Virus record (IMG/VR): IMGVR_UViG_3300027985_000843
Span: 62,001 to 126,000 of that record
Strand: one strand, 5' to 3'
Length of the DNA stretch: 64,000 bases
Source of the DNA: a virus
Translations under genes and position numbers: made by a program
Part shown: piece after piece, positions 1,788 to 33,984 of the stretch
How positions within the stretch are numbered: position 1 is the stretch's first letter
Layout: each line of letters starts with the position of its first letter
The notes under the pieces: model-generated
Told to the model about the DNA's origin: nothing
Database searches by the model: none
Seen by the model: the letters and a program-made list of their open reading frames with translations, nothing else

Positions 1788-1799
1788 TCGGTGTATGAT
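1788..1799 (+). promoter_or_regulatory. GGTGTA-class extended -10 element, plus strand
   Basis: TCGGTGTATGAT ends six bases before the ATG at 1806, with GGTGTA exactly ten bases from the start codon and no Shine-Dalgarno sequence between. TATGAT reads as a -10 hexamer with the extended TG upstream, placing transcription at or next to the ATG. It is the only plus-strand member of the family found here and matches the orientation of its gene. Confidence 0.6.
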
Positions 1800-1805
1800 C
1801 TCCCC

Positions 1806-2030
1806 ATGGACCCAAACGAATGCCTTGCTCAGTTGCGGGAACTGGCCGCTAAGACGGTCGGCGAGCAACACCCCAACCTGGACGCTGAGGCCGCGTCAGC
1901 TTACCGCATGGCCGAACTGTTCGAAGGGCTCGACCAGTGGATCAAGCGGGGCGGTTTCCTCCCCGACGATTGGAAGCAGAAGCCCGACCAAGACGTGTCC
2001 CCGGACCTCCGGGAACTTCGCTCACACTAG
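1806..2030 (+). CDS. Small hypothetical protein
   Basis: The 74-residue acidic protein begins MDPNECLAQL. The reading frame also contains an upstream GTG at 1791, but that lies within the GGTGTA promoter element, so the ATG at 1806 is chosen. It is mostly helical, with a Trp-containing segment (FEGLDQWIKRGGFLPDDW) that looks like a small folded unit. No family is recognised. The gene is expressed divergently from 1363-1767 and ends one base before the stop of the minus-strand metallopeptidase gene at 2032, so the two transcription units converge with no room for a terminator. The transcript is probably leaderless. Confidence 0.7.
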   Translation: MDPNECLAQLRELAAKTVGEQHPNLDAEAASAYRMAELFEGLDQWIKRGGFLPDDWKQKPDQDVSPDLRELRSH

Positions 2031-2031
2031 G

Positions 2032-3153
2032 TCACACGGTCGGCTCAAACCGAACCATGACCTCGGGTGGGATGGGCATACCCAGCACGTAGTGGGCGAA
2101 CGTCTCAGCGAAGTCCTCCCCCACGCCCGTCTTGGCGTACTGACTCACCGTGACGGTGTTGTTGTCCCCGATGAACACGTACTTCCGACCGGGCCGAACG
2201 AAGTTCCGTTCGAGCCACATCTCCCCTCGCTTGTATGCTGCGGTAGCATCCTTCTGCGACATCCCCGAGCCTGAGAAGGTATCCTTGAAGTATTCGATCA
2301 AGGGGACGTTCGGGTCCTTGAGGAACCCCACGGCCTTCGCAGGAGAGAAGTCCCCTCGAACAAGAGCCTGCCACATGTCCTGACGCGCCTCAAGAGTGAT
2401 ACCCTCTCCCTTGGAGTAGTTGTCCTCGTAGGCGTCTCTCTGGGGCCCTGAGAGCTTCTTGTGCCAGTAGCGGTGTCCAAGCTCGTGGACGAAGGTGTGG
2501 ACGTCGCTGAAGCGGAACCTAGCCTCCGCATTGAGCAAGACTATGTCGGGCGACTCCTTGTACATGCCCGCCCAGCTCTTCCGGCCCTTGTCCTCGGACC
2601 CACCGACGAGATAGACATCCCCGTACAGAATGCTACCGAAGCCCTTGGACTGTATCTTGCTCGAAGCGTCATCCAACAGCTTCATGGCCTCCGCATACTC
2701 TTCCGGGCGGTAGCCGAACTTGTTGATGATCTTGAACGGCCCGTGCTGGAAGTCCTTCTCGACCGTCCGATACGAGTCGAGGCGGTCCTGGACCCTCACG
2801 AGGGACTTGAGGGAATCCTCGATGCTTTCGAGCTGGATCGAAATCCAGGAAACAGCATCTTGTGTGGGGCCGCTCAGGTTCTTCTCAGCGAACGGATACT
2901 TGAGACGATGCAACCACTGAAGGACGCTCTTCATCTTCCGTTGCTCGTCCTTGCGCTCGAATCGAACACCATCGAGCATGGTCGCAAGAGGGCTCAGCTG
3001 CTCGCCCATCTTCCGGAACAGTTCGACGGCCCCCTCGGGGTCCTCTCGCAACTTCCGCTCGATCTGCGGGGCCATCTTCCGGAACAGCTGGACGTAGTCC
3101 TTGACCTTCGCGGCCAGGATGTATCGAGCTACGACCTTTCGGACGTCCGTCAT
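2032..3153 (-). CDS. HExxH zinc metallopeptidase with N-terminal RVVARYL-like tag
   Basis: The 373-residue protein starts at the ATG overlapping the upstream stop (ATGA). Residues 6-14 read KVVARYILA, a short peptide repeated across this operon. A long charged helical region follows (about 15-135). The catalytic motif HELGH is at 223-227 and a second conserved segment EDFAETFAHY at 346-355. The latter has the position and form of a gluzincin third zinc ligand (Glu). The fold type is clear, but the substrate is unknown. There is no signal peptide. It is the last gene of a four-gene coupled operon that also encodes two other HExxH enzymes. Confidence 0.85.
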   Translation of the reverse strand: MTDVRKVVARYILAAKVKDYVQLFRKMAPQIERKLREDPEGAVELFRKMGEQLSPLATMLDGVRFERKDEQRKMKSVLQWLHRLKYPFAEKNLSGPTQDAVSWISIQLESIEDSLKSLVRVQDRLDSYRTVEKDFQHGPFKIINKFGYRPEEYAEAMKLLDDASSKIQSKGFGSILYGDVYLVGGSEDKGRKSWAGMYKESPDIVLLNAEARFRFSDVHTFVHELGHRYWHKKLSGPQRDAYEDNYSKGEGITLEARQDMWQALVRGDFSPAKAVGFLKDPNVPLIEYFKDTFSGSGMSQKDATAAYKRGEMWLERNFVRPGRKYVFIGDNNTVTVSQYAKTGVGEDFAETFAHYVLGMPIPPEVMVRFEPTV

Positions 3154-6100
3154 CGCTGGCCCCTGTTCGCCAAGTAGCGGGCGATGACGCGAGCCATCCG
3201 GATCTCTCCCGGGATGGTCACGTTGAGCCACTTGCGAATTTGGGGGAGGACCGTTCGAGGGCCGTAGGCGACCAGCATGCCGACAGCCTCACAGAACGCC
3301 TCCTCAGAGTTCTTGTTGGCGTACCCTGTGATGGGGTTGTTGGGGGTAGGCATTGTCGTGGTGCCCTCTTCCAACAGATCCTCGAAGTCTTGCTTCTTGG
3401 CAAGCTCTCGGTGGCGGCCGGCGTAGCCGGGCCACACAGCGTCGAGCTGGAGAGACAGAACGGGGTCCTTGTCCGCCAGGTACTCGGCGAACTCGTAGGA
3501 CCACATGTCCCCGGGCCACTTCGCGAGAAGCTCCCGGATGTCGAGGTCACCGTAATCCCCGTAGATGGCCTCCGACCAATAGTCCTTGGCTCCCCCGCCC
3601 AACAACTTCCACAGGTGGTGGCCCATCTCATGGGCCATCGTCTTGACGAGCTTGTCAGGGTTGCTGCTGACAGCTGCGGAGGCGTAGATCGTGATGGTCC
3701 CGTCGTGGTTGTATCGACCGCCTTCCCCGATCGTGGCTTCGAACTCGAAGATCATCGGGAGCTGATTCTTTGCCATCCACGGCATCCGCTCTGCGGACCT
3801 CTTGCGGAACAGCTTGAGGGCCTCCTTGAGCATCGCCATCTCTTCGGCGTTGTAGCGATCGTTCTGCTTGTAACCCCGGACTTCGATCCTGAAGCCCTCC
3901 AAGATGACTTGCTCTCGACCTGGAACCTCAGCCTGCAACGTCGCGGGCTCGTCGGGGTCCTTGTATCGGCGGTTGTTCGGGTCTTCATAGTAGTCGATGG
4001 CCTCCCGCACCGCTTTCCAGAACACCTGAGCCTTCCGCCTGATTCGCTTCTCCCACGCCTTGACATCCTGCTGGTACCGGCTGAATCGAACCGTCTCAGG
4101 CATGAAGTCCGTAGCCCTGTCGATGGGCAAGTCGGCTTCGATGTAGAAGTCCCATCCGGACTTGCGAAGCATGTAGTCGATGTTCTTGCGGACGTTTTCC
4201 TTGATCCGCTCATCGTACTTGAGCGACTTGTTCAAGAAGCGCTCGAACATCAGGTCGGCGAACCGCTTGCCCCACACATTGAAGGCTTCCTTGAGCCGGA
4301 TGGCCGTATCATAGTCCTTGACGCGAGGGACGTTCTTCATGAGGGTGAGGAAGTCAGCCCTCATCTTGTCGACCCATGGTTGATCGATCTGGACCAGCTC
4401 GGTTGCGTATCGAGCCACAACACGATTGACGAGGGAGGCCGCGAACGGAACCGGCTCGTAGTCCTCATCGGGGGTTACTTTGCAAGTCGGGCACGCCTGG
4501 CACACGTCGTCAGCCCGCTCTTTGAGCTGCTTGAGTCTACGCTTCTCCTTGGTCGCCCGTTCCTGTTCCTTGTACCAAGCATCCTCGTACTTGTCTTGGC
4601 CGGTCTCACACTTGCGCTCCAACCGTATTTGCTTCTGACGCTCACGCTCCATTTGGGCGATCTCTCGATCGGCGTTTTCCTGGAGCCACGCGTCATTCTC
4701 GTAGGGATGCTCCTCGATGTACTCCATGAACTGCTCGGCCCGTTCATCGGGGGTGCCTTTGAACTGGTTTTTGAGCTTGTTCCACAGGCCGTGATACTCG
4801 GACGGAATATTGTACTGTGCCCGCTCGTCTCGTTCCCTCCGACGTTCCCAGCCCCTCTGTTGTGGCGACAGCGCAATCCGGTCGGCCGACTTGTCCAGCC
4901 GATGCATGACCGTGCCGTCTTTCATGTACGTGTCTTCGAGGCCCGGGACAAGGTACTGACTCCGAAGCGTGGAAGCCTCGTGCCCGACAGCGGCAGCCGT
5001 TTCCTCCAGGGCCTTCTTGAACTCCTCCTTGAGGACGGCCTGCCGTTCCTTCGCGTCCGTGGGGAGCTTGCCCTTGCGGACAGCCTTGAGGCGCCGCTTC
5101 ATTTCCTCGTTGGCGTGCAGTCCCCGGATGTCTTTCGCCGTGATGTCGAACTTCTGAAGGTACGCATTGATCTTGGTCGCGTCGATCTTGCCTGTGTCAT
5201 GGCAGAACAGGCAGTCTTCGCCTTCCACGGCCTCGTAGGCATCCCGCAACGCCTTGACCAACGCTGCGCTGCTGACCGTTTTCTTCTGCTTGACGCCGGA
5301 CTTGCCAACGTAGGTGACCGTCGCCTTGCCTCGACCGAAGCTGACGTGATTCTTTTGCCAGCCGGTGACCCCGAAGTGACCATCCTTCGCTGAAGTGTCG
5401 TTGCCAACCCGCTCATACGTCTCGTCGATCAGCCCCACGGCCAGTGCCGTGAGGAACTTGTTCGGGTCGGAGGACTTGAGGTCCTTCGCCACCTGGGCCC
5501 GCAAGCCGTCGATGCTCTTGCGGAGCTTCTCGACGCGCTTCGCCTTCTCTCGGTTGCGGTGTTGGACCTGCCCTTCACTGTACTCGTAGACGGTCGTGGT
5601 TCCCTCACCGTCCTGCTTCGGAACCTGCTTCTTGTTCTTGTATCGAGCCGCCGTCCGCTTCTCCCGCTCGACCGGCTTGCCGTCGATGAGAATCTCGTGC
5701 GTCCGGTCAGCCCCATCGCCATCGACACCCGCGATGGCTTCACCGTCGACGTCGATGGAGGTCGAGTGGCCCACATCCCCAAGATACTTGATCTCGGCAA
5801 GCACCTTCTCGATGGCCTTGAGAGTGTCGCCCTCCACATCCACCTCGATAGTGTGGCGAGCCGCTTCCAGGTACCGGGCCACCACGCGTGTGGGGCCGTC
5901 TCCCCCGGGCCCATTCTCCCCGCACTCCCCCGTCTCGGGGCAGCGGTAGGCATCCCGGCCGTCGTCATAGATGGGCTCAGAGGGGCACTCAAGCAGGTCA
6001 GGGCCCGTTTGGCTAGGCAGGTCCCACAGGTGAGCCGCGACGACCCTGGTGGCCCCTCCTAGGGCCTCCAGGGCCGAGGTCACGCCGGGGATGACATCCA

Positions 6101-6425
6101 TGGCCGAGACCTCGCGAATGGGGACCCACTGATACTCGGACGATTCGTAGTTGAGCGTGGGCTCACCCTCCGAGTCGAACGTGTGGAAGTAGGTGACCGT
6201 CGCCGTGGGCATGTTGAGCGTGATGACCTTGGTCAGGTAGTTGACTGCGAGCCCCGCCTCTTCTTGCGTCTCCCGGATGGCCGCCTCCACCACGGCCTCG
6301 TCATCTTCGACACCACCCGTCGGGAAGTTCCACTTGCCGGGCATCCACGGAGCCGTAGGGCCTCGCTTGAGCAGCAGGACAGAGTCGCCTCGTTGAATGA
6401 TGGTGGCTGCAACGGTCTTGGTCAT
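3150..6425 (-). CDS. Nudix hydrolase - type IB topoisomerase - HExxH metallopeptidase fusion
   Basis: This 1091-residue multidomain protein starts at an ATGA overlap. Residues 1-125 are a Nudix hydrolase with a complete box at 37-59 (GG..E43..R51E52..E55E56.G58). A TopIB domain covers about 260-505, with a full candidate pentad R339 (RVGN), K375 (GKSG), R434 (KDIRG), H482 and Tyr491 (SQY). These spacings resemble the vaccinia enzyme. A Lys/Glu-rich linker with a CxxCxxC (642-648) follows. The C-terminal metallopeptidase has HEMGHH at 932-937 and SEEAFCEAV near 1040. RVVARYL-like peptides sit at 127-134, 180-190, 668-674 and 1079-1085, separating and ending the domains. It may act as a polyprotein or a multifunctional virion protein; both readings are inference. 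Confidence 0.85.
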   Translation of the reverse strand: MTKTVAATIIQRGDSVLLLKRGPTAPWMPGKWNFPTGGVEDDEAVVEAAIRETQEEAGLAVNYLTKVITLNMPTATVTYFHTFDSEGEPTLNYESSEYQWVPIREVSAMDVIPGVTSALEALGGATRVVAAHLWDLPSQTGPDLLECPSEPIYDDGRDAYRCPETGECGENGPGGDGPTRVVARYLEAARHTIEVDVEGDTLKAIEKVLAEIKYLGDVGHSTSIDVDGEAIAGVDGDGADRTHEILIDGKPVEREKRTAARYKNKKQVPKQDGEGTTTVYEYSEGQVQHRNREKAKRVEKLRKSIDGLRAQVAKDLKSSDPNKFLTALAVGLIDETYERVGNDTSAKDGHFGVTGWQKNHVSFGRGKATVTYVGKSGVKQKKTVSSAALVKALRDAYEAVEGEDCLFCHDTGKIDATKINAYLQKFDITAKDIRGLHANEEMKRRLKAVRKGKLPTDAKERQAVLKEEFKKALEETAAAVGHEASTLRSQYLVPGLEDTYMKDGTVMHRLDKSADRIALSPQQRGWERRRERDERAQYNIPSEYHGLWNKLKNQFKGTPDERAEQFMEYIEEHPYENDAWLQENADREIAQMERERQKQIRLERKCETGQDKYEDAWYKEQERATKEKRRLKQLKERADDVCQACPTCKVTPDEDYEPVPFAASLVNRVVARYATELVQIDQPWVDKMRADFLTLMKNVPRVKDYDTAIRLKEAFNVWGKRFADLMFERFLNKSLKYDERIKENVRKNIDYMLRKSGWDFYIEADLPIDRATDFMPETVRFSRYQQDVKAWEKRIRRKAQVFWKAVREAIDYYEDPNNRRYKDPDEPATLQAEVPGREQVILEGFRIEVRGYKQNDRYNAEEMAMLKEALKLFRKRSAERMPWMAKNQLPMIFEFEATIGEGGRYNHDGTITIYASAAVSSNPDKLVKTMAHEMGHHLWKLLGGGAKDYWSEAIYGDYGDLDIRELLAKWPGDMWSYEFAEYLADKDPVLSLQLDAVWPGYAGRHRELAKKQDFEDLLEEGTTTMPTPNNPITGYANKNSEEAFCEAVGMLVAYGPRTVLPQIRKWLNVTIPGEIRMARVIARYLANRGQR

Positions 6426-7786
6426 TGTGCTTTTCCGTGAAGGTAGCGGTGCACCACCTGGAAGGCCAGCTTGGAGACAGGCTTGCCGCCAAATCCCGAG
6501 AGCCACAAGGTGCGACGCATCCGGTACAGAGCGTTGGGCGGCAACTTCTCTGGTGAAACCATGAACAAGACGAAGGTGTCGGCGAAGTCCTCTTTCTCGT
6601 CCGTGGTTCCATATTCGGTCGGAATCTGCAATTGCTCGTAGAGAGCCTTCAGAGCTTCCCCTACCTCAGGGTTCTCCCGCCGAAGAAGGTTGACCGTGTC
6701 GGGGGCGATGCGGAGTCCTGAGGAGTACCCCAGGCCCAAGATCTTCTTCTTGTGAGCAACCACCCTCTCCACTGTGCGATCGAAGTCAGGATCGTCTGGG
6801 GAATAGCCGTAGTTCGTTTTTACATAGAGCTGTGGATTCCGGATGACGTCGAAGAGTTGCTGCCCTCGCTTGGTGAGCCGAAATTGATTCGCCGCGATGA
6901 GCGGGTCACCCATCCCAGGGTCTCGAAGCCAGTAGGCAAATTTGACTTTGTCGAGCCCCTTGAGGCGGCGGGCCGTCTTGGCGGGGTTGAAGTCGTCTTT
7001 TTCGAGCAACGCGTAGTAGCGTTCCAGTTCGTTGGGCTTGATCTGATCCAACAAGCTTCGTGTGTCGTGGATGGGGTCCCAAGCACCGTCCCAGAACTCT
7101 CGGGCTTCTCCCTTGATGTAGGTCATGTGCACGAAGTGACCGAACTCGTGCATGAACGACCCCATAATCCACGATCCTGTTCCGAGCATCCGGTGGGGAC
7201 CGTCCTCGGTGAACATGGTCTTGCCCAACACGATGGTTTGCGCGTGCGAAACGTAAAGAGCGCCAGCATCATCCGTGTCCTGAAGGACAACTTTCTTGAC
7301 TCCTTCCTGGAGGAGTTCCGGCACACCGCGCTTCTTGAAGGTAGCCCGCAGAAAGTCGATCGCATCAAACAGCTTTTGCAGCCGCTTGGGCCCAAGACGG
7401 AACTGATCCGTGACTGGAAAGCCCTTGTACTGGAACTGGGCCGGCCCGATCTGGCCCAAGAACTGTTGGAGGGTCTGCTCGAACCGGTCGAGTTGGCCCA
7501 ACAGCTCCTGGTAGTCCTCCGGTTTTTGGTTGTCTGACAACGCCAAGAGAACGGGGCCTCTCGGCCGCATCGCGTCCAGAGTGGCCTCAGCGTCTCCACC
7601 GAAAGCCAGCAAAACCCAGTCAATGAAGCCCTTTTGCGTTGTGAGCATCAGGGCGTTGGGGGCGAACGTGTAGCGATCGAACACGTCCTTAGCCTGAGGA
7701 GTACCGAGGCGCACGGCCCGCACTTCTTGGGCAGCCCTCTGGAATGCTTCCAGATCCTTCTTGGCCTCTTCCCACTCTCGGGTCAT
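6422..7786 (-). CDS. HExxH zinc metallopeptidase with C-terminal RVVARYL-like tag
   Basis: The 454-residue protein starts at an ATGA overlap with the upstream gene. HEFGH is at 213-217 (FMHEFGHFVHM) and the likely third-ligand segment EDFADTF at 399-405, the same arrangement as the enzyme at 2032-3153. A mostly helical N-terminal domain precedes the catalytic core. The protein ends in FQVVHRYLHG (442-451), a variant of the operon's repeated peptide, here at the C-terminus instead of the N-terminus. It has no secretion signal. The substrate is unknown; virion processing or host-protein cleavage are possibilities only. Confidence 0.85.
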   Translation of the reverse strand: MTREWEEAKKDLEAFQRAAQEVRAVRLGTPQAKDVFDRYTFAPNALMLTTQKGFIDWVLLAFGGDAEATLDAMRPRGPVLLALSDNQKPEDYQELLGQLDRFEQTLQQFLGQIGPAQFQYKGFPVTDQFRLGPKRLQKLFDAIDFLRATFKKRGVPELLQEGVKKVVLQDTDDAGALYVSHAQTIVLGKTMFTEDGPHRMLGTGSWIMGSFMHEFGHFVHMTYIKGEAREFWDGAWDPIHDTRSLLDQIKPNELERYYALLEKDDFNPAKTARRLKGLDKVKFAYWLRDPGMGDPLIAANQFRLTKRGQQLFDVIRNPQLYVKTNYGYSPDDPDFDRTVERVVAHKKKILGLGYSSGLRIAPDTVNLLRRENPEVGEALKALYEQLQIPTEYGTTDEKEDFADTFVLFMVSPEKLPPNALYRMRRTLWLSGFGGKPVSKLAFQVVHRYLHGKAQ

Positions 7787-8205: not shown

Positions 8206-8264
8206 CACCTTCCCTGACGCACAGGAGAATTATCGCCAAGCACAGAGCTATGTACGGCGGGCTC

Positions 8265-10832: not shown

Positions 10833-10835
10833 GCG

Positions 10836-11336
10836 TCAGTCCTCCATGTCAAAGTCGAAGTCATCGTCTGACGACAGCCGGCCGTACGCGGTCTTGGGAC
10901 GGCGGGGCCGATAAGGCTTCTCTGCCAGCCTCTTCCGATCCTTGGTGTTCATGAACGAGAATTTGACCTTCGCCTTGCTTACGCCCCTCTCGTGGTGAAT
11001 GAGGAGAATTTCACCCGGTCGAAGGCGTAACGCAGGGTTGAAGAAGATCGAGCCCCCGCTGCTGATCATGCCGCTCGGGACCCAATCGTCCAGGGGCTTG
11101 GTCATCTCCCCGTTGCGGGAGATGTTGAGGATGCGCCCCTTCGAGGCCCGCATCGGAAGGGCCATGAACGGCCAGTCCTGCGGAGTGTGTACCACCCGAA
11201 CACCGTCGACAGGCGTGTCTGGGACTTCGATCTTGGACCCCGACCAACTCGCCAGAGTGAGGGTCCTGTACTCGGAGCTGTGGAACGTGACCTTCCACAG
11301 CTGGCCGTCCGTCCAGACAATGTCGCCCAGCTTCAT
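10836..11336 (-). CDS. Hypothetical protein with leaderless start
   Basis: This is a 166-residue beta-rich protein beginning MKLGDIVWTDGQLWKV, with an SH3-like N-terminal barrel, a basic segment (KPYRPRRPK) and an acidic Asp-rich tail. The ATG at 11336 is chosen over the in-frame upstream start because GGTGTA lies exactly ten bases upstream of it and would otherwise be translated. There is no Shine-Dalgarno sequence. It resembles a nucleic-acid-binding small domain, but no family can be named. Confidence 0.65.
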   Translation of the reverse strand: MKLGDIVWTDGQLWKVTFHSSEYRTLTLASWSGSKIEVPDTPVDGVRVVHTPQDWPFMALPMRASKGRILNISRNGEMTKPLDDWVPSGMISSGGSIFFNPALRLRPGEILLIHHERGVSKAKVKFSFMNTKDRKRLAEKPYRPRRPKTAYGRLSSDDDFDFDMED

Positions 11337-11342: not shown

Positions 11343-11354
11343 AGTATACACCAA
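11343..11354 (-). promoter_or_regulatory. GGTGTA-class element before 10836-11336
   Basis: On the minus strand this reads TTGGTGTATACT, with GGTGTA at 11352-11347 and ten bases to the ATG. TATACT is a good -10 hexamer with an extended TG, six bases before the start codon. No Shine-Dalgarno sequence is present, so a leaderless mRNA is inferred. It overlaps the stop region of the upstream gene. Confidence 0.6.
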
Positions 11355-13568: not shown

Positions 13569-13609
13569 CTGTTGCTACTACGCTCGGGGTTGAGAACAGT
13601 TCGGAAGAA

Positions 13610-13969: not shown

Positions 13970-14253
13970 GTGTTCACCCAATCCGCTCGGAATACCAACA
14001 TCTTGTCGGCTTCACTCGTGGCGGTCAAATGAACGCGGATGTAAAGATGATCTTCGAACCGACGGACCGCATACCTCTGCACGGAGAACTTGCACACGCG
14101 CGTGCCCTTCACGTGAGACATGAGCTTCCGAACGAAGTCGTTGGAATTTTCAGTGGGGATGGCGTCCACGGCCTCTTGTTCGGTGAAGTCCTCGGAGTCA
14201 CCTGGTTCCAAGCCCCCAAACAGAGCCGTCAACATGTGTCCCTGATCACTCAT
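13966..14253 (-). CDS. Small hypothetical protein
   Basis: A 95-residue protein starting MSDQGHMLTALFGG, its ATG overlapping the stop of the DUF1848-like gene (ATGA). The C-terminal half is beta-rich with alternating charged and hydrophobic residues (VCKFSVQRYAVRRFEDHLYIRVHL), suggesting a small beta-sheet fold. No family is recognised. It is probably translated in step with its two neighbours. Confidence 0.6.
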   Translation of the reverse strand: MSDQGHMLTALFGGLEPGDSEDFTEQEAVDAIPTENSNDFVRKLMSHVKGTRVCKFSVQRYAVRRFEDHLYIRVHLTATSEADKMLVFRADWVNT

Positions 14254-15071
14254 GGTAGCACCCACAACCCCTTGGTGGTGTTCTTCTTGGCCGGGGCCAG
14301 CGACTTGTCCGCTGCGTAGCAGTATTTGCAGCCCATGACGCACGCCTCGTTGACCGTAAACGGGTCAACAGCATGAGCACAACCACAGGCTTCGTGAGAA
14401 ACGCCCTCTCCCTGGAAGCGGCGGCCGTCCTCACACACACCGTACCTGAGATTGACCGGCCGTGGAAGCCTGAAGTTGTCGAGAGTGCGATCTTCGTTGC
14501 ACACGAGAACCTTCAGCCCCCGCGCCTGTTCGGCCATCCGCTGCAAGAGCCTCTGACGGGTCGGTAGAGACCTCTTCTCGGGCAGCAGGTCGTTGTCCTG
14601 GAGGAAGGCCACGTAGACGCTCCTGACCCCAATAGATTCGACCCGAGAGGCTATCTTGGCGAACCTGTCAACCACGTCCTCCACAACGGGCACTGGACTG
14701 AATCGCCAAGTGATGTTCTCCGCCCCGAACTTGTCCACAGCCCGACCCATGAGATCCAAGCTCTGATCCAGACCCGGTGCTCCGATCTCGACCTCCTCCC
14801 ACCCTGTGATGGTCATGTGGATAACCAATGGGTAGGGTTTGAGCAGGTCCGCGTTCTTGATGAGAGTGATGGGCTTGCGGCTCCAGAAGATCAAGCCCAG
14901 GGTGTCCTCGGGGGCGAGAGACCATCGGCTCGGAACCGCAGTTCGGGGGTCGAAGGCCGCCATCCACCCCTGCTGAAGCTGGGCTCGGAACCACGGCCAT
15001 TTGGCGGCAGGCAGGTCAGTCCACCGCGACAATGAGTAGGGTAATCCTTCGGCTTTTCCGCTACGAATCAT
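14250..15071 (-). CDS. DUF1848-like protein with C-terminal CxxxCxxC cluster motif
   Basis: The 273-residue protein matches the DUF1848 pattern as I know it: an N-terminal 'SLSRWTDLPA' stretch, 'EDTLGLIFWSRKP', 'ITWRFSPV', and a terminal cysteine cluster. C244, C248 and C251 form CVMGCKYCYA, preceded by a CGC motif. CxxxCxxC is the 4Fe-4S/SAM site of radical SAM enzymes, unusually placed at the C-terminus in this family. The substrate is unknown. A GGTGTA element stands 11 bases before the ATG, with no Shine-Dalgarno. The gene heads a three-gene coupled unit. Confidence 0.75.
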   Translation of the reverse strand: MIRSGKAEGLPYSLSRWTDLPAAKWPWFRAQLQQGWMAAFDPRTAVPSRWSLAPEDTLGLIFWSRKPITLIKNADLLKPYPLVIHMTITGWEEVEIGAPGLDQSLDLMGRAVDKFGAENITWRFSPVPVVEDVVDRFAKIASRVESIGVRSVYVAFLQDNDLLPEKRSLPTRQRLLQRMAEQARGLKVLVCNEDRTLDNFRLPRPVNLRYGVCEDGRRFQGEGVSHEACGCAHAVDPFTVNEACVMGCKYCYAADKSLAPAKKNTTKGLWVLP

Positions 15072-15076: not shown

Positions 15077-15090
15077 TGATCTTACACCGG
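15077..15090 (-). promoter_or_regulatory. GGTGTA-class element before the DUF1848-like gene
   Basis: The minus strand reads GCCGGTGTAAGATC, with GGTGTA at 15088-15083, 11 bases before the ATG at 15071. TAAGAT is the likely -10 hexamer, seven bases from the start. There is no ribosome-binding site. It lies in the short gap after the clpX stop codon. Confidence 0.55.
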
Positions 15091-15118: not shown

Positions 15119-16396
15119 CTACCCTTGAGAAGCCACTCGCTTCTCGGTGGCCTCACCGCCACCCTTGTACTTGATGATGGGGGGCTGCTTGTCCGTGACG
15201 GTGTCCTTCGTCACGGTGATGGATTCCACGTTGGATCGTTTGCCTGCATACTCGAAGGTGAGCGGGATCGTGATGTCCTCCACCACGCTTCGCAAGGCCC
15301 GCGCCCCCGTGGGCTTGCTCATCACCTTCCGCGCGATGGCTTGCAGAGCCTCTTCCTCGAACGTCAGCTGGATACCGTCCATGCTGAACAGGGCGATCAA
15401 CTGTTTGATCAAGGCGTGCTTTGGCTGAGTGAGGATCTGGACGAGCTGCTCTTCCGTGAGGGGGAGAGTCGTGGTCATGATGGGCAGGCGCCCCTTCAAT
15501 TCGGGGATGATTCCGAATTCCAGGATGTCGTCCTCTTCCGCCAACTCGTAGACGTCTGTCTTCGTGAGTTCACGCTTCGCCTGTGCGACGCCGAACCCCA
15601 TTTTGCTGCCCTTGTTTATCCGCTGTTTGACGATGTCATCCAAACCACCCTCGAAGGACCCGAGGCAGATGAACAGGACGTTGGAGGTATCGAACATCGT
15701 GGTCGGCTGGTCGACGGACACCATGCGGGAGGTCCCGAGCGGGAGGTTGACCCTGCTCCCCTCGACCAGCTTGAGCAACGCCTGTTGAACGCCTTCCCCG
15801 GTAACGTCACGGAATCCAGAAGCTCCGCGCCCCGACTTGCGGGCAATCTTGTCGATCTCATCGATGACACACACACCCCACTGAGCCTTCTCGGTGTCAC
15901 CGCCGGCCGCCGCGACGAGCCCTTGAAGGATGGACTCGACGTCATCCCCGACGTAGCCCGTTTGGGTGAGCTTGTTGGCATCGGCGACATGCATGGGCAC
16001 GCCTAGCATGTCGGTGAAAGCACGGATGACCTCCGTCTTTCCCGAACCCGATGGGCCCAGGATCAGGATGTTGCTCTTGTCTATCCGAACATGGTCCCCG
16101 CCGCCTCCCTGCCGGAAATACTCTCGGCGAAGATAGTGCCGGTACACAGCCACGGCGACGTCTCGCTTGAGTTTTTCCTGACCGATGACATGCTCGTCGA
16201 GGAATGCTTTGATCTCTTTCGGCGGGAGGAGAGGCTTCTCGGCTTCCTCGTGCACGTGCTCCTTCGCGTCCTTGTACAACGTCTCGTGCACCAAGTCGCT
16301 GCACCGGTTGCAGATGAAGGGGCCGCCCTCGTTGCCAATGAGGGTCTTGACTTCGTTTTCGGGTCGCTTGCAAAAACTGCACTGTCGCTTGGGCAT
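15119..16396 (-). CDS. clpX: ClpX-like AAA+ unfoldase
   Basis: The 425-residue protein has a complete ClpX layout. An N-terminal zinc domain has C6, C9, C29 and C32. Walker A is GPSGSGKT (114-121), the pore loop GYVG (147-150), and Walker B VIDEID (177-182). A C-terminal small domain includes PTGARALRS. The start MPKRQCSFCKR at 16396 fits bacterial ClpX and places GGTGTA ten bases upstream; the longer open frame reads through the promoter. ClpX feeds substrates to ClpP or remodels complexes alone. No ClpP gene is seen here. It could act with host ClpP or as a stand-alone remodeller. Confidence 0.95.
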   Translation of the reverse strand: MPKRQCSFCKRPENEVKTLIGNEGGPFICNRCSDLVHETLYKDAKEHVHEEAEKPLLPPKEIKAFLDEHVIGQEKLKRDVAVAVYRHYLRREYFRQGGGGDHVRIDKSNILILGPSGSGKTEVIRAFTDMLGVPMHVADANKLTQTGYVGDDVESILQGLVAAAGGDTEKAQWGVCVIDEIDKIARKSGRGASGFRDVTGEGVQQALLKLVEGSRVNLPLGTSRMVSVDQPTTMFDTSNVLFICLGSFEGGLDDIVKQRINKGSKMGFGVAQAKRELTKTDVYELAEEDDILEFGIIPELKGRLPIMTTTLPLTEEQLVQILTQPKHALIKQLIALFSMDGIQLTFEEEALQAIARKVMSKPTGARALRSVVEDITIPLTFEYAGKRSNVESITVTKDTVTDKQPPIIKYKGGGEATEKRVASQG

Positions 16397-16398: not shown

Positions 16399-16629
16399 CT
16401 AGCCTATACACCGATCGCAGGCGGAAAGCTTCAAATCCTCTATCTTTTCGCCTGTATGACAAGGACACACCAGCACGTATTCCTTCTGCCACGAACCCGA
16501 AGCGATCCGCCAACCCTCGGCCTGAAGGACCTTCTTGGCCTCACCGAAGGTATCGGAGTCAGTTTCGAAGTAGAGGGGCTGAAGGTATTGGCAGCCTTCG
16601 ACGTCGCACACGGCATTGAAGAAAATCAC
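16399..16629 (-). CDS. Small zinc-ribbon protein
   Basis: A 76-residue protein with an N-terminal C-x4-C pair (CDVEGC) and C-terminal cysteines (CPCH and CDRC) that would make a zinc ribbon. The start is a GTG overlapping the stop of the carbon-nitrogen hydrolase gene (GTGA), which explains why there is no separate ribosome-binding site. The function is unknown. It overlaps the clpX promoter element at its 3' end. Confidence 0.6.
   Translation of the reverse strand: MIFFNAVCDVEGCQYLQPLYFETDSDTFGEAKKVLQAEGWRIASGSWQKEYVLVCPCHTGEKIEDLKLSACDRCIG
16401..16414 (-). promoter_or_regulatory. GGTGTA-class element before clpX
   Basis: Minus strand GATCGGTGTATAGG, with GGTGTA at 16412-16407 and ten bases to the ATG at 16396. 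TATAGG is the -10-like hexamer. No Shine-Dalgarno sequence lies between. It overlaps the 3' end of the upstream zinc-ribbon gene. Confidence 0.6.
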
Positions 16630-19878: not shown

Positions 19879-20447
19879 GATACCCTTCCCTTGGTCCACG
19901 CCTGGACCTCTTTGATAACGTGCTCCCACGAGGGGACCCGGAGATCGTCGCAGTCGATCACCCGTTGGTTGTTGCGGGAGTTCCAGACCATGCCCACACC
20001 ATCCGGGTGAGCATCCATCCAGGACCGAACGTTGTCTGGGCTGTCATCGACGATGAAGTCTCCATCAACGACTGACTTGTCCTTCGTGTATACCTGGTGG
20101 TTTTTGCTGATGTTGAACACCCGAACCAGATAGTTCGAGCGCTCCTCCGCCCAGCTCAGTGCGGAGGTCACAGTACGAACGTCGGCGACCTGTTGTAGCC
20201 TCCAAACAGCATCGAGGGCCTCCGGGTGGGGCTTCAAACGAAGGCTCCAACCGGGAGTGTGGATGACCGCCATCACCAGTTGGAGCTGTCGTTCGTTGAG
20301 GACCTTGAAGAGGTCCCACTCTTGGGGCCCCTCCTCAAGAGTCCACTTGCGGCCCAAGATATCCGAGATGAGCTTCTCCGCCTCTGTCTCGAAGTCGACC
20401 ATCACGTCGTCTACGTCCAACAGGACGCGGGGTTTGATTCTAACCAT
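19875..20447 (-). CDS. 5'-deoxyribonucleotidase-like HAD phosphatase
   Basis: The 190-residue protein opens with the HAD nucleophile motif LLDVDDVMVDF (D11, D13) and has a late FIVDDSPDNV acidic motif typical of the NT5C/5'(3')-deoxyribonucleotidase group. A motif II Thr/Ser (VTSA) lies in between. Such enzymes dephosphorylate dNMPs and tune pools of dUMP/dTMP. Placement directly before thyX, with overlapping start and stop, supports a role in thymidylate metabolism. The ATG overlaps the end of the upstream gene. Confidence 0.75.
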   Translation of the reverse strand: MVRIKPRVLLDVDDVMVDFETEAEKLISDILGRKWTLEEGPQEWDLFKVLNERQLQLVMAVIHTPGWSLRLKPHPEALDAVWRLQQVADVRTVTSALSWAEERSNYLVRVFNISKNHQVYTKDKSVVDGDFIVDDSPDNVRSWMDAHPDGVGMVWNSRNNQRVIDCDDLRVPSWEHVIKEVQAWTKGRVS

Positions 20448-20694
20448 TCAGCATGTCCTCGAAGTCGTCCAGTTTTGGGTCATCGTGCAGCAACCTCGAC
20501 CACGCATCCGTCTTGCCCTCAGGTCCTTTGGCTACCACGGACATGGCAGCACTCACCTCGTCGAACTCCTTCTGAGTTCGGCACTTGGCGAGCATCTGTC
20601 GGAAGGTAGCGGCCTCGTCGGTTTTGACCTTGCCGGCCTTGACGAGGAATTCGAGGGACGTGAGGTAGCGTTGCTTGGTGTATCGGCGGCTCAC
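20440..20694 (-). CDS. Small hypothetical protein with GTG start
   Basis: An 84-residue helical, charged protein beginning (GTG)SRRYTKQRYLTS. The GTG is supported by a GGTGTA element exactly ten bases upstream. No cysteines or catalytic residues stand out; the C-terminus is acidic (LDDFEDMLNG). It overlaps the deoxyribonucleotidase start by eight bases and probably heads the nucleotidase-thyX transcription unit. Confidence 0.65.
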   Translation of the reverse strand: MSRRYTKQRYLTSLEFLVKAGKVKTDEAATFRQMLAKCRTQKEFDEVSAAMSVVAKGPEGKTDAWSRLLHDDPKLDDFEDMLNG

Positions 20695-20698: not shown

Positions 20699-20712
20699 CC
20701 TACTTACACCGG
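20699..20712 (-). promoter_or_regulatory. GGTGTA-class element heading the nucleotidase-thyX unit
   Basis: Minus strand CGCCGGTGTAAGTA, with GGTGTA at 20710-20705 and ten bases to the GTG at 20694. An AGGTGG lies only one base from the start, too close for a normal Shine-Dalgarno. It overlaps the 3' end of the upstream gene. It would drive 20440-20694, the deoxyribonucleotidase and thyX. Confidence 0.55.
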
Positions 20713-28265: not shown

Positions 28266-28696
28266 TAATCACCTCCTCGAACCACCACAACATACACCCC
28301 GGCCCGCCACTGTTCGATCGCCTCCGACGCAGCCCGACGCAAGGCATCGTCCGCTTCCGTCAGCTCGAAGCACCACGGCATCTTCTGAGACGCATGGTGG
28401 CACTCAGGCCCCTGAAGAGGGCACCGACGATCGTTGGGGGGCCGCTTCTCTCGAAACCAGCACTGCCGGGCCTCCAAGGGGACTTTTCGAAGAGCGCCCT
28501 CGGGAGGTATCCCGAGGGCATCCACGAGTGGGCGCGACCAACCATGCAGGGCATGATCGATCGTGTCCTTGTCCACCACGGTCACCAAATCACCATAGGC
28601 CGTGCCCTTCAGGACGGCCCAGTTTTTCTCCCATCCGTTCAGGAGGAGCAAGTGCAGCTCCCCCTTCTCGCGGGTCAGTAGTTTGACGTGCCTCAC
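28265..28696 (-). CDS. Hypothetical protein with cysteine/His motif
   Basis: A 143-residue protein starting (GTG)RHVKLLTREKGE, its GTG overlapping the stop of the small membrane protein gene (GTGA). The open frame upstream is a shadow. The C-terminal half holds CPLQGPECHHAS and a further Cys (PWCFEL), a possible metal site, and it ends in a hydrophobic strand (YVVVV). It shares its last base with the polymerase GTG. The function is unknown. Confidence 0.6.
   Translation of the reverse strand: MRHVKLLTREKGELHLLLLNGWEKNWAVLKGTAYGDLVTVVDKDTIDHALHGWSRPLVDALGIPPEGALRKVPLEARQCWFREKRPPNDRRCPLQGPECHHASQKMPWCFELTEADDALRRAASEAIEQWRAGVYVVVVRGGD
28287..28300 (-). promoter_or_regulatory. Possible GGTGTA-class element before polA
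   Basis: Minus strand GCCGGGGTGTATGT, with GGTGTA at 28298-28293, 27 bases before the GTG start. It is followed by a strong Shine-Dalgarno AGGAGG. It lies inside the coding end of the upstream gene, so it may be chance, but it repeats the spaced element-plus-Shine-Dalgarno arrangement of the AAA ATPase gene. Confidence 0.4.
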
Positions 28697-29512: not shown

Positions 29513-29515
29513 GCG

Positions 29516-30976
29516 TCACACCATGCTCAGGATGTCGTCCGGATCCTCGCACCCCATGCCATGCCCCTCCACCTGCGTGACGTCGAAGTTCTTGAGACGC
29601 CGACAGGTGAAGTTCACCTTGACGATGGTCCGGTCGAACAAGGGGTTGTCTCGGTTCTTGAGGTTGCAGCAGACCGTTGTGCCCGCCTGTCTATGGGCCT
29701 GGTTGAGATAGGTGGTCGTGATGACGTCGGCGCTCCTCTCTGCCTCGTTCGCGTAGCTGAGGGCCCGCATCTTGTATACACCATCGGCCTTGTCGGCCTG
29801 GTCCTTACCGTCACGGTTGATCTGGAAGAGCATGAGCAGAGGGATGCCCTCGCCGCCGTTGAAATGCAGGGCGAGCTTCTTCCCGTCCCGGAGGACAGAG
29901 TTCAGCTCGATGGTGTAGTTGGTGTTGTGTCGGCGAGGCTTCACCAGGCCGCCGTGGTCGATGACCAGCAGCCCGATTTCCATCTGCCGGTGCATCAGCT
30001 CGGCTTCGATTCTGATGTCGTCCAACGTCACGTCACGGTCCGGACACCAGATCTCGAACCGGGCGTATTCGGGGTTGTTGGCGAAGTCGTTCAGGACGAG
30101 ATCGTAGAACTTCTCCTCCTCCAGCGACAGCTCCCCGTCCCGCACCTTGCGGTAGTCCAAGGGTTCATAGCCCATGGCCGCGAACTTGCCGTTCGCCGAG
30201 TGAAGAACGTGGATGATTCGCTGGATCTGCTCAAGAGGCATTTCCAGCGACACGTAGAACACGTTCGCTCTGAATCGGGTGACGAGGTTGTACGCCCAGT
30301 TGAGCGCAAAGGTGGACTTCAATTCACCCGCAAAGCCTGCGTGGACCCACATCTCGCCACGCTTGATGCCCCGGCACACCTTGTCGATGTCGTTGATGCC
30401 CGTGAGCTTGCCGTACGCCTTGCTTTTGTCGTGCTTGGCCGCGAGGTACGCTTCCCACGAGTTGTCCGTAAGGACCCTCAGGTTGCCCCTGGTTCTGGTG
30501 TTGGCCTCCCTCGGTAGCAGGTCGACGGCTCGGGCACTGTAGAACAGGTGGGCGTCCGAAGTACCTCGATAGATCTTCTTCTCTCGCCCCTCCTGCACTT
30601 CCATGCCCTTGCTCACCACCTCTTGGGCGTCCTTGAGCAACTTGAGCATCTTGACCTTGTTCTGGTCGTCCAGCAGTTGCTTGAGCAAGAAGCCATAGTT
30701 GGCGTACGTGTAGACGGGCTGTCCCTCGATGTCCTTTAGCCGCTCCAACGCCTCGACGTTGTTGGCCTTCGTGAAGTAATCCTCTACCGTCTGAGCCGAC
30801 GGGAGGTTGGGCAAATTGTGCTCGAAGTAGGACTTGACGAATCTGAAGATTTGCTCGTCATCCGGCCGGTTCCACTGGATGTTCGAGCCCAGCAAGTAGC
30901 GGAAGTTGACCGACAGGGCCTCCGGGTCAATCTTACCGTCCTCGAAGTCAATGATCGATCTGAGAAGACGAATCAC
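29516..30976 (-). CDS. DnaB-like replicative helicase
   Basis: The 486-residue protein has a helical N-terminal region (1-190) and a RecA-like core. The Walker A GFAGELKST (214-222) keeps the terminal Lys-Ser/Thr but lacks the usual second Gly. The DnaB signature VSLEM (242-246) follows, with an IGLLVIDHGG Walker B and a C-terminal segment ending in NFTCRR. It fits the ring helicase of phage replication. The GTG start overlaps the upstream stop (GTGA), coupling it to the putative helicase-loader gene. Confidence 0.88.
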   Translation of the reverse strand: MIRLLRSIIDFEDGKIDPEALSVNFRYLLGSNIQWNRPDDEQIFRFVKSYFEHNLPNLPSAQTVEDYFTKANNVEALERLKDIEGQPVYTYANYGFLLKQLLDDQNKVKMLKLLKDAQEVVSKGMEVQEGREKKIYRGTSDAHLFYSARAVDLLPREANTRTRGNLRVLTDNSWEAYLAAKHDKSKAYGKLTGINDIDKVCRGIKRGEMWVHAGFAGELKSTFALNWAYNLVTRFRANVFYVSLEMPLEQIQRIIHVLHSANGKFAAMGYEPLDYRKVRDGELSLEEEKFYDLVLNDFANNPEYARFEIWCPDRDVTLDDIRIEAELMHRQMEIGLLVIDHGGLVKPRRHNTNYTIELNSVLRDGKKLALHFNGGEGIPLLMLFQINRDGKDQADKADGVYKMRALSYANEAERSADVITTTYLNQAHRQAGTTVCCNLKNRDNPLFDRTIVKVNFTCRRLKNFDVTQVEGHGMGCEDPDDILSMV

Positions 30977-31836
30977 CAGCGGCCTCCCTTTCCCTTCTTG
31001 AACTTCGACTTTGGCTGGGCCTTGGGCCTCGACAGAAGCTCCACCTCGTCACCCGCGTCGTCCGACTCATCAGGTTCGGGTTCGTAGGGGTCAGGCTCCT
31101 CCTGGCTGAACTCCTCCTCCGGCTCTACGTCGGTGACCGACAATCCCAAGTCATCGTCGCTGCGTTCGCCCACGTACCGCCTCCCAGGGTCGACCGGCTC
31201 AACATCGACGGATTCGAAGTGCGTTCGGAGATACTCCTCCACTTCTTCACTCCGAGAATGCAGCCACGGTCGGTCTTCCTCGTGGATGACCCACACAGCA
31301 GCCTGCATGGCTTCCCGGATCATCAAAGTCTCCAGCAAGGCACCGGCCGCCGCCCTGTTGGGGTAGCCGATAAAGCCAAGCCGAAGGATGATGAGGTCGT
31401 AGTCCTCCACGAAATCCGACAAGGAGTTGAACACCTCGCGGACCTCCCTGGAGGCCAACGGTTGGTTGCGATACTGCTCGTTGCCGACGTAGACGTTCTT
31501 GATTTGCTGATCTGTGATGATCTTGAAGTTGAATTTCAGGCCCTTGCAGCCCAGGACCCACTTGAGGTGAGGCAGCAAGTTGGGCCACGGGCAGTCGAGG
31601 AACAGGTTATCCCCTGTCCGGTCCACGGAGGGCGGTTCCCCCTTCGTCATCTGGAACAGAGGGCTGGACGTCACGTGGGTGGAGCTACTGATCTCCGGAC
31701 CCAGCTTCTCTCGGAGCAAGATTGAGAGCATGTTCCGACAGGGCCGGTCCGTAAATTCATCGACGGGCACCGAGCCATTCCCATCGCAGCCGGGAAGTCT
31801 CGGCAGCCCACACCTCGGGCATTTGGATTCTGCCAT
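30973..31836 (-). CDS. Hypothetical protein, possible degenerate helicase loader
   Basis: A 287-residue protein with an N-terminal zinc cluster (CPRCGLPRLPGC) and an acidic Pro/Glu tail ending in Lys-rich residues. The middle has the layout of a DnaC/IstB-type AAA domain: NLFLDCPWPNLL where a P-loop would be, and DLIILRLGF where a Walker B would be. The P-loop Lys and Walker B acids are missing, so ATPase activity is unlikely. A helicase-loader role is inferred from this and from its place directly before the helicase. A GGTGTA element lies ten bases before the ATG. Confidence 0.55.
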   Translation of the reverse strand: MAESKCPRCGLPRLPGCDGNGSVPVDEFTDRPCRNMLSILLREKLGPEISSSTHVTSSPLFQMTKGEPPSVDRTGDNLFLDCPWPNLLPHLKWVLGCKGLKFNFKIITDQQIKNVYVGNEQYRNQPLASREVREVFNSLSDFVEDYDLIILRLGFIGYPNRAAAGALLETLMIREAMQAAVWVIHEEDRPWLHSRSEEVEEYLRTHFESVDVEPVDPGRRYVGERSDDDLGLSVTDVEPEEEFSQEEPDPYEPEPDESDDAGDEVELLSRPKAQPKSKFKKGKGGRW

Positions 31837-31840
31837 TAGT

Positions 31841-31854
31841 CTCCCTTACACCGA
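31841..31854 (-). promoter_or_regulatory. GGTGTA-class element heading the helicase-primase unit
   Basis: Minus strand AGTCGGTGTAAGGG, with GGTGTA at 31852-31847, ten bases before the ATG at 31836. It overlaps the last codons and TAA of the SNF2 gene. GGGAGA lies within the spacer and could act as a weak ribosome-binding site. It probably serves the loader-helicase-primase genes. Confidence 0.55.
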
Positions 31855-33627
31855 CTTTGAATTTTGCAGCATCTTGACAAGGCTTCGCAGGTCGCTGCCA
31901 CCTGTGTCGAACTTGAGAGCCCCAACAGCTCCCTCGCCCAGCACCTTGTCGATGAACCCTCGCTTGTTTCGGAGCAGGGTCAGCACGTGGTGGTCGATCG
32001 TCTTGCTGTCGGCGGCCTTCTCTTTGCCCGGCCGCATTGCCACGAGATGGAACACGAGCACGCCCTTGTGGGGCGAGCCGATTCTGACCATTCGTCCAAG
32101 GATCTGGAGGTAGTTTCCCCACGACCAGGGGGCGTCGTAGAAGACGGTGGCCGCCGCCATCTGGAGGTTGATGGCTTCCGACCCGGCATCTGTGATGAAC
32201 ACGACGTTGATGCCGCTGTCCGGGTCCTGGAACTTCTTCTGGTTGCTGCGTCTGACCTTGTCGTCCGTCTCCTTGCCCGTGATGCGGGTCGACTCGATGC
32301 CCTGCTTCTTCAGGATGGCCTGGAGTCTCGGCACGAGGGAGGCGAAGCGGGTGTAGACGATGACCTTCTGATCGTCCAGCTGCTCCGAGAGCAGGTCGAC
32401 CAATGCCTGTTCCTTCGACCCCAGGGAATTCACCCTGTATCGCTTCGGATCGTCAATGAGGTCGGCGTTGACACCCGAGCCCTCACCGAACCCCAACATT
32501 GCGAGCGAATTGACGACCTGCTGGCAGTAAATGAGGGACACCAGAGCCTTGTTGTCCTCGTAGACCTTCATCTCGCCGTCGCCCAGCTCGAACACGCCGG
32601 TGAGGGCCTCTGCGTACTTCAGCTCCTCGGGACGCGACAGCTCAACCACGATCTCTCGCGTGGTGAGCGTGGGCAGCTCTTTCGCCACCATGTGCTTCTT
32701 GCGGCCAAGGAAGAACGGATCGATGGTCGATCTGAAATGGTCGAGGTTCTTGTACCCCTTGATGATGGGAACTCGGGCCTTGCCCATCTTCTTCAACTCG
32801 ACGAAGCAATAGGAGTCGTGGAACTTCGATTGGGTGGTGAACAGCCCGGGCCGAACCACGCCGTAGATGCAGTAGCCCTCGAACAGTCGGTTCTTCAGAA
32901 GGGTGGCCGTCAGGCCGTAACATCTGTTCGCCTTCCGGCTCAGGAACTGAGCGATTTCCCACGTCTTGGTACGCTTCGACTTGAAGGCCGTCGCCTCGTC
33001 GAACACCACCGTGAGCTTTTCGATCGATCCCGTGATTTCGTCGAGGAGCCCTGGCTTGACAGGCTTCTTTGGATCTGGCTTGCCGTCCGGCTTCAATGGC
33101 TGAAAGCCGCCCTCATTCCAGTCCCGAACCAGCAGGGCGTAGTTCGTGATCAAAACGGCAGGTTTCTTGCTGTCTCGCCACTTCTGGTATGCCTCAGTTC
33201 GGAGGTCAAGAGCTGACTTGCCCTTGGTCGGCTTGGCCGAGGCCACGATGGGCTCGACCCCCACGAGGAAGCGTCTGATCTCGTCCGCCCATTGCTCGAT
33301 GGCGCTTTTGGGGGCAACCACGATGACCTTGTGGTCTGATTCGGCCTTCGAGTCCCACAGGTAGGCCATGGCGGCAAGAGTCTCCACCGTCTTGCCCAAA
33401 CCACAGTCATCCCCAAGCACCATCCGCTTGAGCGTCATCATGTGATAGACGCCCTGCACTTGGTAGTATCTGAGGGTGAAGTCTTCCTCACCCCCTCCGA
33501 TACTCGTGATTCTCTGTCTGAGCCACTTGCATGGCTTCAAACTCACTGTCTTGGATGCCCGTACTTCTTTGAGTCTCTCGTAGGCTTTCGCCATCGAAGG
33601 AGACAACTCCGCCATCGGTTCCAGCAT
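31846..33627 (-). CDS. SNF2-type superfamily 2 helicase
   Basis: The 593-residue protein has both RecA-like lobes. Motif I is GDDCGLGKT (72-80), motif II VVFDEAT, motif III GLTAT, and motif VI QILGRMVRIG. Motif Ia (VIVVAPKS) and the lobe-2 strand KVIVYTRF are also clear. SNF2 translocases remodel protein-DNA complexes, and phage versions are linked to replication or recombination. There is no C-terminal nuclease domain. MLEPMAEL at 33627 is the start; the longer frame reads through the GGTGTA element ten bases upstream. Confidence 0.9.
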   Translation of the reverse strand: MLEPMAELSPSMAKAYERLKEVRASKTVSLKPCKWLRQRITSIGGGEEDFTLRYYQVQGVYHMMTLKRMVLGDDCGLGKTVETLAAMAYLWDSKAESDHKVIVVAPKSAIEQWADEIRRFLVGVEPIVASAKPTKGKSALDLRTEAYQKWRDSKKPAVLITNYALLVRDWNEGGFQPLKPDGKPDPKKPVKPGLLDEITGSIEKLTVVFDEATAFKSKRTKTWEIAQFLSRKANRCYGLTATLLKNRLFEGYCIYGVVRPGLFTTQSKFHDSYCFVELKKMGKARVPIIKGYKNLDHFRSTIDPFFLGRKKHMVAKELPTLTTREIVVELSRPEELKYAEALTGVFELGDGEMKVYEDNKALVSLIYCQQVVNSLAMLGFGEGSGVNADLIDDPKRYRVNSLGSKEQALVDLLSEQLDDQKVIVYTRFASLVPRLQAILKKQGIESTRITGKETDDKVRRSNQKKFQDPDSGINVVFITDAGSEAINLQMAAATVFYDAPWSWGNYLQILGRMVRIGSPHKGVLVFHLVAMRPGKEKAADSKTIDHHVLTLLRNKRGFIDKVLGEGAVGALKFDTGGSDLRSLVKMLQNSKSV

Positions 33628-33631
33628 CCCG

Positions 33632-33645
33632 CAACTATACACCGA
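33632..33645 (-). promoter_or_regulatory. GGTGTA-class element before the SNF2 helicase gene
   Basis: Minus strand CTTCGGTGTATAGT, with GGTGTA at 33643-33638 and ten bases to the ATG. TATAGT is a near-consensus -10 with an extended TG, six bases from the start codon. No Shine-Dalgarno. This is one of the clearest copies. Confidence 0.65.
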
Positions 33646-33654
33646 AGGTGATAG

Positions 33655-33963
33655 TTACCGACGGATGAAATGAGCCTTATTGCGACGAAACGCTATCTGC
33701 TGAGCCTCGTCCATGGCCCTATGAATTTGCTCGGTGGTCGCGCCAGCATCCATAGCCGTTCGCAGAGTGGCAGAGACCTCCCGCGACAGAATAATCTCCG
33801 CCTGTATGGGGACCTTCGCTTTGCGCGGCATCCGCATATCCGCATCAAAAGACGACGTCACGATAGCCGGCGTCTTGTGCAAGTACACCTTCACCCATGT
33901 CGCCCTCAGGCGACGCAGGCTCAGGAACACATTCATCCTTCGAACACGACTCAGACGATTCAT
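33655..33963 (-). CDS. Small basic hypothetical protein
   Basis: A 102-residue, strongly basic protein starting MNRLSRVRRMNVFLSLRR. The middle is a beta-strand and helix pair (KVPIQAEIILSREVSATLRTAM), and the tail is basic (RRNKAHFIRR). It could bind nucleic acid. A GGTGTA element lies 13 bases before the ATG; the in-frame upstream codons fall in the promoter. No family is recognised. Confidence 0.6.
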   Translation of the reverse strand: MNRLSRVRRMNVFLSLRRLRATWVKVYLHKTPAIVTSSFDADMRMPRKAKVPIQAEIILSREVSATLRTAMDAGATTEQIHRAMDEAQQIAFRRNKAHFIRR

Positions 33964-33970
33964 GTCTGTA

Positions 33971-33984
33971 GTACGATACACCGA
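33971..33984 (-). promoter_or_regulatory. GGTGTA-class element before 33655-33963
   Basis: Minus strand CTTCGGTGTATCGT, with GGTGTA at 33982-33977, 13 bases before the ATG. It shares the first ten bases (CTTCGGTGTA) with the element 340 bases away before the SNF2 helicase. No Shine-Dalgarno is present. Confidence 0.55.

Follow-up and report, generated by a model that had tools for sequence, protein, structure and literature searches.

A sequence-only reading of one jumbo-phage locus raised the question of whether the hexamer GGTGTA, repeated at a nearly fixed distance ahead of start codons, is a promoter element from which leaderless mRNAs are made. The window analysed here comprises 64,000 nucleotides (record positions 62001-126000) of a 371,739-bp jumbo-phage genome (G000). 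All six genes said to carry GGTGTA exactly 10 nt before the start codon, and the two said to carry it at 11-13 nt (in fact 11 and 13 nt), were confirmed by position (Table 1). The statement that nearly all of them lack a Shine-Dalgarno (SD) sequence agrees with the genome-wide scarcity of SD sequences in this class (see below), and the gene starting at 31836 is a local case that is not clean. For the genes starting at 15071 and 31836, a simple gene caller favours other positions. Orthologs of the ClpX-like AAA protein gene in two related phages (G003 and G007), and the ortholog of the SNF2-type helicase gene in a third (G008), likewise carry GGTGTA. Elsewhere in the window, the minus strand (3150-6506) encodes a protein of 1118 aa that matches Nudix hydrolase families in its N-terminal part.

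Table 1. GGTGTA copies and a class II-like site ahead of start codons in the window (position 1 is the first nucleotide of the window).
Element	Position	Strand	Relation to start codon and gene
GGTGTA	1790..1795	+	ATG at 1806, 10 nt downstream (gene 1806-2030); TGAT directly after hexamer
GGTGTA	11347..11352	-	10 nt upstream of ATG at 11336 (gene 10836-11336)
GGTGTA	15083..15088	-	11 nt to ATG at 15071 (ORF 14250-15071); alternative start 14963 possible
GGTGTA	16407..16412	-	10 nt to ATG at 16396; ClpX-like AAA protein gene 15119-16396
GGTGTA	20705..20710	-	10 nt to GTG start codon at 20694 (gene 20440-20694)
GGTGTA	31847..31852	-	10 nt to ATG at 31836 (ORF 30973-31836); AGGGAG also there, SD possible
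GGTGTA	33638..33643	-	10 nt to ATG at 33627; SNF2-type helicase gene 31846-33627
GGTGTA	33977..33982	-	13 nt to ATG at 33963 (gene 33655-33963)
GGTGTATGAA	24032..24037	-	24 nt to ATG at 24007, AGGAGG in between; probable leadered version
GGTGTATGTT	28293..28298	-	27 nt to DNA polymerase GTG at 28265, GAGGAGGTGA in between; probable leadered version
GGTGTATCTG	36682..36687	-	~38 nt to ATG at 36643, AGGAGG in between; possible leadered version
GGTGTA (additional copy, not listed in the earlier reading)	1026-1031	-	12 nt to ATG at 1013; ambiguous, inside another called gene
CCGAAC-N17-GTAGTA (class II-like)	13576..13604	-	ends 7 nt before ATG at 13568; position deduced

The window contains 38 copies of GGTGTA compared to 14.2 +/- 3.9 in dinucleotide shuffles, and five of them stand at spacing 10 before the ATG of ORFs that span 40 codons or more, where about 0.2 would be expected (P ~2e-6); this combination tops all hexamer/spacing combinations in the window. 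The proposed check, a motif scan of the whole genome for position relative to starts, gave a strong lock at the same spacing. In the record, which was scanned in full except 60001-62000, 254 copies were found, with an ATG at spacing 10 in 55 and at spacing 11 in 25 compared to a background of ~3.6 per spacing, and GGTGTA at spacing 10 ranked first among all hexamer/spacing combinations (P 7e-45). The 18 one-mismatch neighbours of the hexamer showed between 0 and 11 sites at spacing 10, none comparable to the 55 for GGTGTA, and the highest were GGTGTT (11 versus a background of 3.2) and GGTGAA (10 versus 2.9). This intolerance of one-mismatch variants, unlike the degeneracy of sigma-70 promoters, makes a phage-specified reader more likely than host sigma by itself, two options that had previously been left side by side.

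The position lock recurs in relatives, which were found via the DNA polymerase, an AAA protein and a sigma-like protein (P218, see below) and were each read in part: G002 (512 kb, GC 0.49), G003 (437 kb, GC 0.55), G007 (435 kb, GC 0.65) and G008 (251 kb, GC 0.68). At spacing 10, GGTGTA occurred 28, 27, 37 and 17 times, respectively, compared to backgrounds of 4.2, 2.4, 2.0 and 0.9, and ranked first or second among start-locked hexamers in each of the four; in a scan that also scored -35 positions, it was highly significant but ranked below the hexamers of a second class in G003 and G008. In G007 and G002, the spacing has two modes, at 9-10 and at 12 nt, and 11 nt is rare. Orthologs of about 35-60% identity share GGTGTA 15-27 times above expectation by odds ratio (Fisher P 2e-3, 1e-3, 3e-4 and 6e-3), and reversed-pattern controls gave 1 versus 40 sites in G003 and 0 versus 10 in G007. 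Another genome (G005) showed a weak GGTGTA excess at most, and no excess at spacing 10 was seen in G011, in pooled more distant loci or in 250 kb of LR745208.

Alignment of 85 sites from G000 gave the consensus Y-C-GGTGTA-T-G-K-T-N5-C-ATG, and the hexamers TATGAT, TATACT and TATAGT named in the sequence-only reading follow the T-G-G/T-T consensus of G000 and G003. The part clearly conserved across all five phages is Y-GGTGTA, and the constant element of the class is GGTGTA itself. The description of this element as an extended -10 therefore needs qualification: a TANNNT-like hexamer does begin at its TA in G000 and G003, but G002, G007 and G008 show no conservation of the last T, and the TG directly abuts the TA, whereas a canonical extended -10 has TGn before the hexamer (TGnTANNNT).

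These features bear directly on whether the host sigma-70 holoenzyme alone could recognise GGTG-TANNNT as an extended -10, the host being one with a preference for leaderless genes, as in the Actinobacteria or Deinococcus-Thermus. The G000/G003 consensus, Y-GGTGTATGGT, contains TANNNT about 12 nt before the ATG, as in leaderless bacterial genes (PMC3160421; PMC3898074), and the 85-site alignment holds no further information upstream of these starts, so that -35 conservation is absent, as this explanation would have it. However, the lack of conservation of the final T in three phages, the register of the TG and the lack of clearly tolerated variants of the hexamer all speak against it, as does the degeneracy of TANNNT in Mycobacterium tuberculosis, where only 7% of the hexamers are preceded by TGN (PMC3898074). 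We consider reading by host sigma alone unlikely.

Gene context was compared between class I genes (with GGTGTA), class II genes (with GTAGTA-type elements, see below) and the remainder. An SD sequence of at least 5 nt preceded 2/67 class I, 0/32 class II and 118/341 other genes of G000, where the starts come from a simple gene caller that gives motif starts a bonus and the class counts therefore lean towards the motif; raw hexamer-to-ATG counts are independent of the caller. The base before the ATG was C in 79% of class I, 97% of class II and 43% of SD genes in G000; this preference was modest in G002 and, in G007, no stronger than in some control classes. Class I genes had a divergent upstream neighbour more often than SD genes in G000 (36% versus 10%) and G002 (45% versus 14%), with a small excess in G007 (17% versus 13%). 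Among close divergent gene pairs of G000, 7/13 had class I genes on both sides, and facing GGTGTA pairs within 40 nt were diverging in 16 cases and converging in 1 in G000 (15 and 0 in G003). Only about 32-37 bp separate the two ATGs in some head-to-head class I pairs, some of which form the palindrome TACACCGGTGTA with ~32 bp from ATG to ATG. Because such pairs leave no intergenic space for another promoter, we read GGTGTA as a promoter.

The genes served include those for a DNA methyltransferase, an SNF2 helicase, a ClpX-like AAA protein, an ADP-ribosylglycohydrolase, dCTP deaminase, uracil-DNA glycosylase and an HNH endonuclease. In agreement with the claim that the structural genes, which begin at 37 kb, do without the element, no plausible start-locked site was present between record ~99 kb and 154 kb, and a search for a third motif before the structural genes found none. 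Sequence statistics back the earlier proposals of promoter function, of restriction to non-structural genes and of leaderless mRNA, the last through the fixed spacing, the lack of SD sequences and the pyrimidine at -1. The proposal that a strong AGGAGG intervenes where the element lies farther away held for the genes at 24007, 28265 and 36643 and across this phage, where 7/9 genes with a farther element had an SD compared to 111/332 others (Fisher P 0.01). As a general rule it was rejected, since the five phages pooled gave 19/60 compared to 443/1636 (P 0.46). Class I starts lie right behind tRNA 3'-end-like sequences at record positions 249846, 260991 and 273573 (minus strand), and likewise at 276822, 288693 and 295948 in G007; in G000, some 45 tRNA genes lie within record 246001-286000, together with a tmRNA whose tag is ANDNSAMPVAA.

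Constant spacing from the start codon, with hardly any SD sequences, could also be expected if GGTGTA were a translation signal within longer mRNAs, a phage-specific site for the ribosome or an RNA-binding protein that replaces the SD. Against this stand the excess of divergent neighbours, the head-to-head pairs without room for other promoters and the pyrimidine at -1; moreover, GGUGUA could pair with the 3' end of 16S rRNA over at most about four bases. A precedent exists in the start-associated sequences of cluster K mycobacteriophages, which have been proposed to act in translation initiation (PMC3203893), and yet a translational role for GGTGTA appears highly improbable. Even less credible is that GGTGTA is an operator at which a phage or host repressor sits over the start sites while the promoter lies elsewhere: head-to-head copies can build the TACACCGGTGTA palindrome, but most sites are single and point towards the ATG, and no other conserved element occurs upstream of class I starts. 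Enrichment arising artefactually from codon usage or repeats, for which nothing was found apart from ordinary copies within genes, is already refuted by the low reversed-pattern controls and the recurrence of the spacing lock in five genomes that differ in GC.

The same genome-wide scan of G000 returned a second start-locked hexamer, GTAGTA at spacing 5 (39 sites versus 2.1 expected). This class II has the form CCGAAC-N17/18-GTAGTA-N5-ATG at 42 sites, with a -35 spacing of 17 nt in 36 and 18 nt in 6, and an AT-rich stretch lies upstream of CCGAAC. Its counterparts are TTTGATTCC...GTAGTA in G008, GTGAGATC...GTAATA in G002, GGTTAAGATC...GTGTARTA in G003 and GGAAAA...CGTCT in G007, such that five phage-specific -35 elements (TCCGAAC, TTTTGATTCC, GTGAGATC, GGGTTAAGATC and GGAAAA) accompany a related -10. 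The exact G000 pattern matched once in the relatives, in G007, and was otherwise absent. An integrase-like protein (L022:17863-19284, plus strand; Pfam Phage_integrase 9.2e-7) is encoded behind a class II promoter. CCTATT at spacing 2, another candidate start-locked motif, was rejected as the CRISPR repeat. The corresponding CRISPR-like array (L023:5643-6930; record ~351,643-352,930) consists of a ~36-nt repeat, CTCAAAGGTGGCCCACGACCTATTGAATGGTGGGAC, that is present about 19 times and separated by spacers of ~36 nt, and a single repeat-like copy lies near record 6013; the 24-nt core of the repeat had no exact match in genome_contigs. Adjoining the array is a 764-aa ORF (L023:3108-5402, plus strand) similar to Cas12m (PDB 23vw, E 3.9e-20).

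Two sigma-like proteins were considered as factors. P283 (303 aa, record 282948-283859, beyond the end of the window) matches Pfam Sigma70_r2 (7.4e-7) over the first 38 of 71 positions, so only part of region 2 is recognised; Pfam gave no match to region 4, the predicted model of the protein is of low confidence (pLDDT 58), and a fold search with this model returned nothing usable. Homologs are present in all five phages and are fast-evolving (27-42% identical over aligned parts). Upstream of P283, TTGAC-N17-19-TA occurs in 5/5 phages, a pattern that was defined after looking and that 0.6-5.3% of the genes in each phage share. Ahead of P283 there also stands the phage's own class II promoter, in full in G000 and G008 and in part in G003 (the -35 half) and G007 (a variant, GAAAAAG...CGTCT); G002 has no class II promoter close upstream, only a distant -35 match. 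From these sequence relationships, we infer that P283 may be the class II factor. P218 matches Pfam Sigma70_r4 (2.8e-13) and has a second HTH-like stretch, and structure comparison gave a local match to a chain of a SigF complex (TM 0.87 by target, 1.1 A), although at a Foldseek E of 0.24; Pfam gave no match to sigma region 2. P218 was rejected as the sole reader of GGTGTA, as it occurs at ~40-44% identity in partly sampled phages without GGTGTA enrichment, and a host search of genome_contigs yielded no P218 relatives. No convincing DNA-binding candidate for a dedicated GGTGTA reader was found by Pfam among 20 clade-core genes. A phage RNA polymerase as reader was likewise rejected: neither PF00562 nor PF00623 matched, both being detected in 14/14 controls, PF00940 gave no match either, but its controls were silent, and a DxDGD motif search produced two unconvincing matches only.

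The best explanation, to which we assign a probability of about 0.72, is that GGTGTA is a strict promoter without a -35 that yields leaderless mRNA within a two-class phage scheme. GGTGTA would be the core of this promoter at many non-structural genes of one jumbo-phage clade, and position statistics suggest that the first transcribed base would be the A of an ATG that follows after 9-13 nt, in most cases 10. Since no phage RNA polymerase was found, the host core RNA polymerase probably transcribes from GGTGTA, with specificity supplied by a phage factor; the reader could be P283, a different phage protein, or the host holoenzyme after a phage protein has changed it. Expression of P283 would begin from a sigma-70-like promoter (TTGAC-N17-19-TA), and P283 would then steer the host RNA polymerase to class II promoters (TCCGAAC-N17/18-GTAGTA-N5-ATG in G000), with feedback on its own expression in the majority of the phages. 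More tentatively, at somewhat less than even odds, the clade may possess a leaderless code of its own, in which an invariant GGTGTA is read via a phage factor and a sigma factor has its -35 rewritten in each lineage beside a related -10, with promoters changing in step with one protein.

If this explanation is true, these phages reprogram the host RNA polymerase so that about one gene in five (67 class I and 32 class II of 447 called in G000) yields leaderless mRNA, from two promoter classes that can be told apart by visual inspection. The class II promoters would amount to a natural experiment in sigma-promoter co-evolution, with related phages, a related -10 and five -35 elements, and the motif classes would provide a means of assigning start codons, and of sorting genes into temporal classes, for jumbo phages that have not been cultured. 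The literature searched, which mostly lay outside subscription journals, contained no account of GGTGTA promoters.

In the SPO1 cascade, host sigma acts first and is followed by phage sigma factors with new bipartite promoters. The proposed scheme has the same order of host sigma and then phage sigma, but its promoters abut start codons and the -35 varies among related phages. Promoters of ECF (group IV) sigma factors have GGAAC-like -35 and CGTC or CGTA -10 elements; the G007 class II promoter (GGAAAA...CGTCT) and the CGTA-type -10 of G000, G008 and G002 resemble them, whereas most -35 elements here are not GGAAC, and P283 is a candidate member of this family. Group 2 jumbo phages are without RNA polymerase and carry sigma factors (PMC7824862). 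The late promoters of phiKZ (TATG) and AR9 (AACA-N6-TA/G), which are read by phage RNA polymerases (PMC5312081), are likewise short, strict motifs repeated over a jumbo genome. In contrast to the present phages, where none was found, phiKZ and AR9 encode multisubunit RNA polymerases, and the AR9 5' UTRs of 26-491 nt are not leaderless. The start-associated sequences of cluster K mycobacteriophages are also conserved motifs before a subset of phage start codons, but contain AGGAG and number 11-19 copies per genome (PMC3203893). Leaderless genes of Actinobacteria and Deinococcus-Thermus have a TANNNT -10 about 12 nt before the start (PMC3160421; PMC3898074; PMC12340547). As in these bacteria, the element lies beside the start codon, without SD or -35, and the start is placed at the ATG; unlike in these bacteria, the T of TANNNT is not retained in 3/5 phages, and the place of the degenerate hexamer is taken by GGTGTA, which is strict and specific to the clade.
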